From Haloquadratum walsbyi J07HQW2 (GTDB taxonomy: Archaea > Halobacteriota > Halobacteria > Halobacteriales > Haloferacaceae), in assembly GCF_000415985.1 (NCBI RefSeq), contig NZ_KE356561.1, positions 382,944-446,943 of the forward strand: a stretch of DNA of 64,000 nucleotides, read 5' to 3'. The notes under the pieces are model-generated. The model saw only the letters and a list, made by a program, of their open reading frames with translations. It ran no database searches and was not told the origin of the DNA. Both the position numbers and the translations under genes were made by a program. Each line of letters begins with the position of its first letter. Within the stretch, counting starts at the first letter, position 1. Positions 43,881 through 57,445 of this stretch are shown here, one piece after another.

Positions 43881-44117
43881 ATGAAAGTTGACGCTGATAA
43901 ACTCCAGACGAACGAGACCGACGACCGGGGGCGGGTGTACCTCGGGACTGAGTACGCAAACAAGCGCGTCACAGTGGCTGTCGTCGAGGTTGAGTCCGAG
44001 ACTCCCGACGAGGCGGAACTAGCCGCTGCGTATCGTGAGGCATCGGAAAGCGCCAGTGATCTTGCCGACGAGTGGGATGGGGTTTCGGACGAGGCGTGGT
44101 CGGGACTTGATGAATGA
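43881..44117 (+). CDS. MazE/AbrB-like antitoxin
   Basis: This 78-aa acidic protein has an N-terminal AbrB-like strand pattern (T-D-D-R-G-R-V-Y-L-G-T-E-Y-A-N-K-R-V-T-V-A-V-V). A helical, strongly acidic C-terminus follows (E-A-E-L-A-A-A-Y-R-E-A-S), which would wrap and block the toxin. Its last four bases overlap the start of the MazF-like gene (ATGA), a typical toxin-antitoxin arrangement with coupled translation. Both genes are intact, unlike the neighbouring modules. The pair sits between two 150-bp direct repeats. Confidence 0.75.
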   Translation: MKVDADKLQTNETDDRGRVYLGTEYANKRVTVAVVEVESETPDEAELAAAYREASESASDLADEWDGVSDEAWSGLDE

Positions 44118-44467
44118 GCGACGACACCGAGATTCGGCGCGGTGATATCGTTATCGTTCGACTTGATCCTGCCGAGGGGCACGAAATGCGGAAAACACGG
44201 TCTGCGGTAGTGGTCCAGAACGACGTCGGGAACAAGAACTCTAAGACTACAATCGTTGCACCTGCGACGGGAACGTACCGAAGCTATCCCTTTGAGGTAC
44301 TCGTGGAAGCGTCGGGCTCACCGTTCGAGAAAGACTCCTCTGTGCGGCTTGATCAAATTCGAGTCGTGTCTGTTGAGAAGCGAATCCATTCGGTGGCTGG
44401 CAGTCTCGCCGACTCGACAGTGGGCGAGATCGACGACGCGCTCAAATTGAGTCTCGGACTCGACTGA
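44114..44467 (+). CDS. MazF/PemK-family ribonuclease toxin
   Basis: This 117-aa protein has the complete MazF barrel: I-R-R-G-D-I-V-I-V-R-L-D-P-A-E-G-H-E, then K-T-R-S-A-V-V-V-Q-N-D-V-G-N. It also has T-I-V-A-P-A-T-G and S-V-R-L-D-Q-I-R-V-V-S. MazF toxins cut single-stranded RNA at short motifs and arrest growth until the antitoxin accumulates. The catalytic region (K-T-R-x-A-V-V-V-Q-N and the Q-I-R-V strand) is unbroken. It is translationally coupled to the upstream antitoxin, which probably binds the shared promoter. Confidence 0.88.
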   Translation: MSDDTEIRRGDIVIVRLDPAEGHEMRKTRSAVVVQNDVGNKNSKTTIVAPATGTYRSYPFEVLVEASGSPFEKDSSVRLDQIRVVSVEKRIHSVAGSLADSTVGEIDDALKLSLGLD

Positions 44468-46403: not shown

Positions 46404-46567
46404 GCGGCTTTATGAGAGTGAGCATAATTATGAATTTGAATTGTCGTAAGCGGCTCCATCTCCTCGATACCATCGCACACTGTCAGTGAACCGCCTCAAG
46501 ATCAAGCCCCGACCCCGAGGCACTCGCCCTGCTCCGCCTGTAGAACAGTTCAGGCGTCACGGACCAA

Positions 46568-46590
46568 ACACCCCTCTATCGATATGTTCC
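46568..46590 (-). repeat. ORB-like box 1
   Basis: On the minus strand reads ACATATCGATAGAGGGGTGT. It has the short dyad followed by a G-string that defines origin recognition boxes. Confidence 0.6.
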
Positions 46591-46750
46591 ACTCACTCGT
46601 CGCAGGCTCGATGAGAACTCTGACTGTATCGGGATTCTGATTATCTCGAATACGCACGAGATACGGCTAATACACCGGATTCTATACAGAATTAGAGCGT
46701 ACAGACTTGTCGTTTTGACACCGACAGAATAAGACCTGTCAAAACACACC

Positions 46751-46772
46751 GAACACATCGATAGAGGGGTGT
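46751..46772 (+). repeat. ORB-like box 2
   Basis: Plus strand ACACATCGATAGAGGGGTGT. Matches box 5 at every position and box 1 at all but one. Opposite in direction to box 1. Confidence 0.65.
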
Positions 46773-46933
46773 GTTTGTGTTAACGAATAAGGGAAAAGAA
46801 GAGAACTGAGAGAACGAAACGATCGGCAGACAGTCGATGAGAGCATGTTTTCTCTAATCTCTGGAGTTGCTAATCGAGTACCCCTGATGTGGTTATCCAG
46901 GTCCTTGGCGAACCCCCACTTCGTGAAGACATC

Positions 46934-46954
46934 GAACACATGGATAAAGAGGTG
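46934..46954 (+). repeat. ORB-like box 3, degenerate
   Basis: Plus strand ACACATGGATAAAGAGGTGT. Three substitutions from the box 2 core. Confidence 0.5.
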
Positions 46955-47078
46955 TGTGTCTTTGCCCTGTGTTATTGAACATATCGTCAGCGGCTACTGC
47001 GTCTCAATTCCTCTCACGATACTCCTCGATAATTCTGGAGCTAATCGTGTTCACACGGCTAATCACACTTCGATAGAG

Positions 47079-48585
47079 GTGGGAACTTTTCTATCACAGG
47101 ATAGTATCGAACAGGATATTTGCATTGATGACTCCGAGGATCATTCAGATGAGCCCGGATCGCCGAAGGACAAGACGACTGCTCAAGCAGAGCTGTCGAG
47201 CGCGTCGCAATCGGAACCATCGCGACAGCCGACATCATCTCAGGTCACGAACGGTAACTCGCAACCCGAGGATGCGACTGTCTCTGAGCAGTCATCCCAA
47301 TCGATCGAGGACATGCTTCTTGAGTTCGATGATCAGAGGGGACTGATTCGAGAGCGCGCACTCATGGATCCCGACTATGTCGTCGAAGAGGATCGCATCG
47401 TTGGTCGCGACGAGCAACTCCAAGAGGTCACCAAGATGCTCCGTGTGGCGCTTGGAGACAACCGACCGCCCAACTTGTTTCTCTATGGGCGCCACCCGGA
47501 ACAGGAAAGTCACTGATAACAAAGGCTTTTAATTACAACATTAGCCGTCTGTAACAGCCGAGACATCCAGTTCGGCGCGATTGAAGTGAACTGCCAGGAC
47601 TTAGACACGCTCGGTATTGCCGTCTACGAACTCGTTCAGCAAGCCGCTAACGAAGCAGGTGTCGCTGTCGAAGTTCCAAAACACGGCGCTGCGACGAAAC
47701 AGAAATGCGATGAGCTCTATCGGATCGTCAACGAACGCTTCGATTCGGTTGTGTTCGTCCTTGATGAACTGGATATGCTCGTCGGACGGCGAGACAAGCA
47801 GGAGCCTCCGTTCTCGCGGCTGTTGTATCAACTCTCCCGAGCCGGCACGAACGACGATCTCAAAGCGTACATCTCGGTCGTCGCGATCTCAAACGACACG
47901 AGGATGATGGACTCCGTGGGGAGTCGGGCTGTTAGCTCATTTACACCAGAAGACGTCCATTTCGACGATTACGACGCGAACCAACTCCAATCGATTCTTC
48001 GACGCCGTCAAGATGCGTTCCATGACGACGTTGTCGACGATGACGTGATCCCACTCGCAGCGGCGTTTGCGGCCCGGACCCACGGTGACGCGCGGAAAGC
48101 GATCGATCCCATGCGTGTTGCCGGTGAATTAGCTGAACGAGAAGGCGACGCTCGTGTCCGCGAAGAGCACGTCCGTACCGGACAAAAAAATCGAGAAGAA
48201 TCGGGTGTTGGAGGTCGTCCAGGGTATCAGTACACAGAAGAAGCTCTATCTGTACGCGATTGCAGCCGTCGCTTCCAAAACTGAGGGTGGGTCAGCTCGA
48301 AGTACGACTGGCTACCGAGTGTACCAGTATCTGACTGATGCTATCGGCGCCGATCAGTACCATCAAGAAACGTATGTGAATAAAATGAAGGAGCTCACGA
48401 CCTATTCACTGGTCGATTTCGAACGCCGGAGTCACGGCCCCAGCTCTGAGATGTTTCTTAAATTCCAGTTTGGAGAACGCCCAGAGACGATTCTTGAAAC
48501 ACTTCGAGAAGACTCGCGTATTGAGGCAATTTCCGAAGATGAAGTCAGTTCTGTCGTCAAAGCGCAGATTCGTAATCAGACGTAG
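47079..48585 (+). pseudogene. orc1/cdc6: Orc1/Cdc6 replication initiator, frameshifted
   Basis: Orc1/Cdc6 proteins bind ORB boxes and open the origin. The first frame holds the N-terminal region R-A-L-M-D-P-D-Y-V-V, then I-V-G-R-D-E-Q-L-Q-E and N-L-F-L-Y-G-R. Two extra C bases in the Walker A loop (near 47490-47500) destroy G-R-T-G-T-G-K-S, and a short gap follows. The next frame (47586-48200) has the Walker B V-V-F-V-L-D-E-L-D-M-L-V-G and sensor parts S-N-D-T-R. A further shift leads to the winged helix (Y-L-Y-A-I-A-A-V-A, then Y-R-V-Y-Q-Y-L) ending at 48585. The start is uncertain. No active initiator can be made. Confidence 0.88.
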
Positions 48586-48684
48586 CATATTGTAGCTAGC
48601 TGTCTCCCTCATGCTGTTTTATAATGGTAGTCTCTGAACATTTCGCCGCCTCCTACCCGATGAGTAGTTTCCAGTAGTTTCTGG

Positions 48685-48704
48685 ACACCCCTCTATCGAT
48701 GTGT
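48685..48704 (-). repeat. ORB-like box 5
   Basis: On the minus strand reads ACACATCGATAGAGGGGTGT, identical to box 2. It faces back toward the orc relic. Confidence 0.65.
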
Positions 48705-48777
48705 TTGATATGTCTGTTATCAAGCCACGTTCCCTGTCTTCTTCAATTGACATTTTTTCTATTACCTCTCGTATATA

Positions 48778-48799
48778 TCGCTCTATCGATGTGTATTGG
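48778..48799 (-). repeat. ORB-like box 6, partial
   Basis: Minus strand ACACATCGATAGAGCGATAT. The dyad half is conserved and the G-string is altered. Confidence 0.45.
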
Positions 48800-49109
48800 C
48801 TATCTATCATTGAGATCTTCTTCTGCATCCGTATGTAGACGTTTTTCTGAGGTGATTTTTGATATTCGTTGCTGTTCTCTGTATACTTGCGATAGATTCA
48901 TTATTTATGTAACAAATAATATTGAGTTGTTACACAAGATGTTCTACTCTAGACGTGACCCTGATACACATCCCTCCGATAGAATCCATATTAGCGGTGA
49001 TAGCCACAATTCCAACGTTCAGATGAGCATAACCCTAATACTGAGTAGGAGTCTGACTGCACAACCCTCCTGGTGTATATTATGCCCCATCATCACGTAA
49101 CTAACAGCT

Positions 49110-56392: not shown

Positions 56393-57445
<1,053 letters not shown>

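Follow-up and report, generated by a model that had tools for sequence, protein, structure and literature searches.

The closest described counterparts of the locus analysed here are the haloarchaeal origins that lie next to orc/cdc6 genes and carry lineage-specific ORBs, notably the origins of pL131 and pHLAC01; the replicon set surveyed by Wu et al. (2012; PMC3528665) includes carriers of the Orc lineage in question. The Orc proteins of the pL131 and pHLAC01 origins belong to the same lineage (80–83% identity to the family query), and the family members that were scanned share both the box and the layout. A similar layout, consisting of inverted ORBs, an orc gene and several downstream ORBs, is found at oriC2-cdc6E with oriC2D of Haloarcula hispanica (PMC3936714), and the dormant oriC4-cdc6H of Haloferax mediterranei (PMC4595724) represents another case of a laterally acquired extra chromosomal origin. 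Within the same genus, H. walsbyi C23 carries four chromosomal orc/cdc6 pseudogenes, and HBSQ001 has a disrupted cdc6 beside an ori (PMC3119063). Accordingly, the kind of locus reported here is already known, given that Haloquadratum orc pseudogenes and lateral origin acquisition have both been published.

The window, that is, the whole stretch of 64,000 nucleotides at positions 382,944–446,943 of the 3,594,539-bp single-contig genome of H. walsbyi J07HQW2, contains a module of ~2.3 kb which we interpret, with a probability of roughly 0.86, as the truncated and now dead remnant of a megaplasmid-family orc1/cdc6-linked origin, taken up by the Haloquadratum chromosome from a Halorubrum-type source. 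From the origins of pL131 and pHLAC01, the copy in the window differs in its chromosomal location, its frameshifts and its truncation. The likeness to H. hispanica is one of layout; oriC2D contains 11 ORBs, whereas only two remain downstream in the window. The cdc6H of oriC4 is intact and required, whereas the orc of the window is a pseudogene. The module is absent from C23, in which positions 46540–48830 of the window find no match. It comprises the following features.

46488..48846, no strand: truncated plasmid-type orc-ori module (boxes, orc pseudogene, boxes), delimited by homology and synteny
46568..46587, minus strand: ORB, inner left of the inverted pair, 1 mismatch to the 20-mer
46588..46752, no strand: spacer of the inverted ORB pair, at the position of the unwinding region
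46753..46772, plus strand: ORB, inner right, perfect (0 mismatches)
46936..46955, plus strand: ORB, second right, decayed (3 mismatches)
47065..47084, plus strand: degenerate promoter-proximal box, 4 mismatches in the 17-nt core, aligning with the same place in relatives
47127..48585, plus strand: orc1/cdc6 pseudogene, from alignment to intact orthologs, Pfam domains and invariant-column changes
48685..48704, minus strand: ORB, downstream, perfect (0 mismatches)
48775..48794, minus strand: ORB, downstream, decayed (3 mismatches)

The six box copies counted by the sequence-only reading are indeed present and, as it also stated, lie on both sides of the orc1/cdc6 gene (four upstream and two downstream), but just three of them are near consensus. 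The consensus, GAACACATCGATAGAGGGGTGTGT, was derived as a position-weight matrix from 329 boxes in 45 loci; the window boxes score 31.6, 49.8, 28.5, 15.6, 41.0 and 15.0, the median for intact loci being 41.9. Five box matches with at most three mismatches are found in the window, versus none expected in shuffles. The repeats, with their G-string, occupy the intergenic region directly beside the orc/cdc6 gene, and the inverted boxes at 46568 (minus) and 46753 (plus) flank the position of the unwinding region, arranged as in relatives. The AT content of the spacer (54–58% per 100 bp) hardly exceeds the window mean, and intact relatives are similar in this respect. The promoter-proximal box is detected by the strict pattern in 24 of the 46 intact relatives. 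GC skew displays no distinct inflection at the site, on the scale of either the window or 600 kb; the test is uninformative here, and GC skew by itself has also been reported not to identify origins in H. walsbyi (PMC3119063). A literature search for the box sequence retrieved no origin paper containing it.

Box and Orc lineage are tightly paired. At least two boxes with at most one mismatch accompany 45 of the 46 named intact orthologs, compared to none of the 28 paralogous orc loci (Fisher p ~1e-19); as judged from this co-occurrence in sequence data, the box belongs, as its ORB, to a single specific lineage of Orc proteins, which is highly conserved. The notion of ORB-like boxes at an origin-type site is thus borne out by both the lineage-specific linkage and the origin architecture. 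An exact or one-mismatch box was detected in 65 of 293 related genomes, mostly in clusters of several. Around intact Orcs of the lineage, the mid-domains of which are 81–89% identical to the pseudogene, the same layout recurs: two minus-strand boxes, two plus-strand boxes, the gene and two to five minus-strand boxes. Box order and spacing in the window agree with those of Halorubrum modules within 1–12 bp. For instance, the central inverted pair is spaced by 188 bp (measured between starts of the 17-nt core), compared to 189–192 bp in Halorubrum-type modules, and the promoter box is separated from the plus-strand boxes by 128 and 311 bp, compared to 129–131 and 318–323 bp in most relatives. 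The window Orc also reaches the identity of at least 80% by which an Orc family is delimited in PMC3528665, and its ORBs stand in the conserved arrangement of the lineage. Such a clear pairing for a widespread plasmid lineage helps to recognise its plasmids and relics. One further copy of the lineage orc (G002:C36:7356-8644) carries a 1-bp deletion in the Walker A codons, within a C-run, and is either a pseudogene or the product of a read error.

The completely sequenced carriers of the lineage are mostly plasmids or megaplasmids of 0.1–1.6 Mb. An Orc with ~80% identity or more is encoded by at least 43 records annotated as plasmids (104–1617 kb), including N. pharaonis pL131, H. lacusprofundi pHLAC01 and a 208-kb plasmid of Halobellus limi. 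The lineage is not strictly plasmid-borne, as intact copies also occur on contigs of 1.95–3.45 Mb (G006, 1.95 Mb; G100; G141), so that chromosomal location alone is no sign of decay. The combination of ORBs from a largely extrachromosomal Orc lineage with origin architecture argues for an origin of foreign replicon descent. To this extent, the earlier suggestion of a fused replicon holds; however, what lies between the synteny breaks is a 2.3-kb fragment rather than a recognisable integrated replicon. A viral or proviral origin of the module was considered and rejected, the lineage Orc having no match in phage records or viral contigs.

Homology to Halorubrum modules spans positions ~46558–48805 of the window. 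In comparisons with Haloquadratum genomes, synteny with C23 ends at 46487, and synteny with J07HQW1 restarts at 48847; the two flanks are thus matched in different genomes and are adjacent in neither. An outer upstream box expected at ~46441 is missing beyond the left break, as are two outer downstream boxes expected at ~48887 and ~48990 beyond the right one (positions predicted from Halorubrum coriense and H. ezzemoulense), which indicates that the module is a fragment cut on both sides. This fragment either entered the chromosome as such or is a rearrangement leftover of a larger integration. The genes for SelO, a CobW-type GTPase and PemK on the left flank resemble plasmid genes but are also chromosomal in C23; hence they do not prove integration of a whole plasmid, and plasmid-wide synteny was rejected as proof of such an event. 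The left break itself coincides exactly with a short GC-rich dispersed repeat (46486–46544; core ATCAAGCCCCGACCCCGAGGCACTCGCCCTGCTC), many copies of which are scattered across genomes of the Haloquadratum group; the GC content of the host genome is 47–48% in most sampled stretches. The PemK/MazF-type toxin gene (44114–44467) adjoins that of SelO and has similar counterparts on haloarchaeal plasmids, and a small ORF upstream of it (43881–44117) may encode the antitoxin. A tRNA-Ser at 57306 was dropped as a candidate integration site, because no Rfam tRNA model matched within 40–58 kb at E ≤ 0.1; the underlying ARAGORN call (57306–57395, minus strand), with the anticodon AGA, which is unusual for archaea, is probably false.

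Alignment with intact orthologs confirms that the orc1/cdc6 gene is broken in its Walker A codons, by an insertion of 2 bp at ~47490–47494, and reveals two additional 2-bp deletions, one near 47549, ~55 bp past the first frameshift, and the other in an A-run at ~48183–48190. The aligned ATG start codon is lost, and the Cdc6 lid and winged-helix domains recognized by Pfam sit in two different frames. The longest frame, of 254 aa, falls short of an intact adjacent initiator (more than 300 aa, with AAA+ and winged-helix domains), whereas nearly all of the ~60 copies with at least 81% identity in 392 genomes have open frames of at least 460 aa. Among 45 intact relatives, 244 alignment columns do not vary; the pseudogene is changed at 15 of these, two of which fall at segment edges, whereas the intact proteins have 0–4 changes when each is left out in turn. 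In the protein tree, the pseudogene is nested within the Halorubrum coriense/ezzemoulense group (support 100/97) and has a longer end branch than its sisters (0.082 versus 0.007–0.015); its readable segments are 92% identical to H. coriense, within the lineage clade. The invariant-column changes and the long end branch suggest relaxed selection after loss of function and are not expected from read errors alone. That the gene is really intact and its disruption a sequencing or assembly artefact is, accordingly, the least credible of the alternatives, even if the third indel sits in an A-run and the assembly consists of one scaffold with gaps (N makes up ~0.9% of 600 kb sampled), which is probably a composite of environmental reads. 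The window contains no N at all, and read errors do not explain three separate 2-bp indels, the lost start codon, the excess of changes at invariant residues and the missing outer boxes.

In an intact module, the inverted boxes upstream of the orc gene would serve as binding sites for the Orc, which would open up the intervening DNA and load the helicase, and the downstream boxes would probably titrate the Orc and restrain initiation, as in the case of H. hispanica oriC2, where the downstream ORB array has this effect on Cdc6E (PMC3936714). Given the frameshifted orc, the degeneration of half of the surviving boxes and the excision of the outer ones, the window module is predicted not to fire. 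Nevertheless, little decay is seen in the inner inverted pair and in one of the downstream boxes, so that a cognate Orc, were it available, could still be bound by the cis site. No such Orc is encoded elsewhere in the assembly, the closest full-length orc of this genome being at most 42% identical overall. The ORBs read for those full-length orc genes that have clear repeats are TTCATATCGCACACGGGG at 309 kb, ACAACTCGAAATAGGGGTGT at 32 kb and ACGACGGAAACGTGGGGT at 3560 kb, and the nearest of these, that of the 32-kb orc, is four mismatches away from the window box. The proposal that the site is served by another Orc thus finds no candidate in the genome, where the remaining orcs have different ORBs, and such service appears unlikely, although a co-resident plasmid could supply the protein. 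The Lake Tyrrell J07HQW2 genome has been described as composite, a single scaffold with gaps (PMC4330952); the assembly is probably a metagenome-assembled composite, and a co-resident plasmid could therefore be missing from it.

A dormant but functional origin, the inner ORBs of which are fired in trans by another cellular Orc or by that of a co-resident plasmid, would be consistent with the nearly consensus inverted pair. There are precedents for its components: H. hispanica ori fragments without their own cdc6 did not replicate, but the same Cdc6 worked in trans on its own origin (PMC3936714), the ori beside a disrupted cdc6 in H. walsbyi has been suggested to be possibly still working (PMC3119063), and dormant origins do exist (PMC4595724). 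Nonetheless, we consider this possibility unlikely, given that the assembly contains no cognate Orc, that the other intact orcs have different ORBs and that the boxes of the window are decayed and truncated; moreover, the known dormant origin, oriC4, requires its own intact cdc6H (PMC4595724). The dormant origin envisaged in the sequence-only reading is therefore not supported: what remains of the initiator gene is a pseudogene that shows relaxed selection, the genome offers no cognate Orc, and the outer boxes have been lost at both ends.

The boxes could also have been kept as a decoy: by titrating the Orc of plasmids from the same family on their arrival, the ORB cluster would mediate incompatibility or exclusion. 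In H. hispanica, an ORB array alone reduces replication of the cognate plasmid (PMC3936714), and two further genomes, G105 and G008, likewise retain orphan box clusters without a cognate Orc. More generally, orphan ORB clusters in the window, G105 and G008 might outlast the loss of the Orc by titrating the initiators of same-lineage plasmids that enter the cell, an origin-decoy form of exclusion that we regard as highly doubtful. For the window, a decoy is even less probable, considering that half of its boxes are decayed. The five clear boxes carry 7 mismatches in ~100 positions. In the pseudogene, sites once under constraint appear to have accumulated a few percent of substitutions since function was lost, and by this rough neutral yardstick the boxes have changed no less, so that there is no sign of their being kept. 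With regard to the two other clusters, the Haloplanus-like chromosome of G105 (C1, ~1474300–1474780) contains a C-terminal remnant of the orc lineage of the window, with two stops, followed by five downstream boxes, three of them perfect and four in 43-bp tandem units; the best Orc in this genome is 55% identical and hence not cognate. In G008 (C4:121098-121562), four near-perfect upstream boxes are found in the correct layout but without a cognate orc, the intact orc located ~1.5 kb beyond them being just ~50% identical.

Interpreted as a dead remnant, the locus would illustrate one end of the life cycle of haloarchaeal origins: after the arrival of a mobile plasmid origin in a chromosome, its initiator is lost and the origin decays. 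Across the 3.59-Mb genome, the box (at most two mismatches in 17 nt) occurs only at the module, at a second relic (1,431,876) and at an isolated site (260,136). The second relic (1431237–1431893) is also a decayed orc-ori locus, in which a C-terminal orc remnant, 90–93% identical to an Orc lineage of J07HQW1, is followed by three boxes of the AACAAATCGATAGGGGTGTGT type with 42-bp spacing. In view of this affinity to a related lineage, it was rejected as a copy of the window module. Additional truncated or stop-bearing orc1/cdc6 fragments are present in the same genome at 3559, 1461, 1448 and 1966 kb, and the one at 3559 kb retains boxes resembling those of the intact orc at 309 kb.
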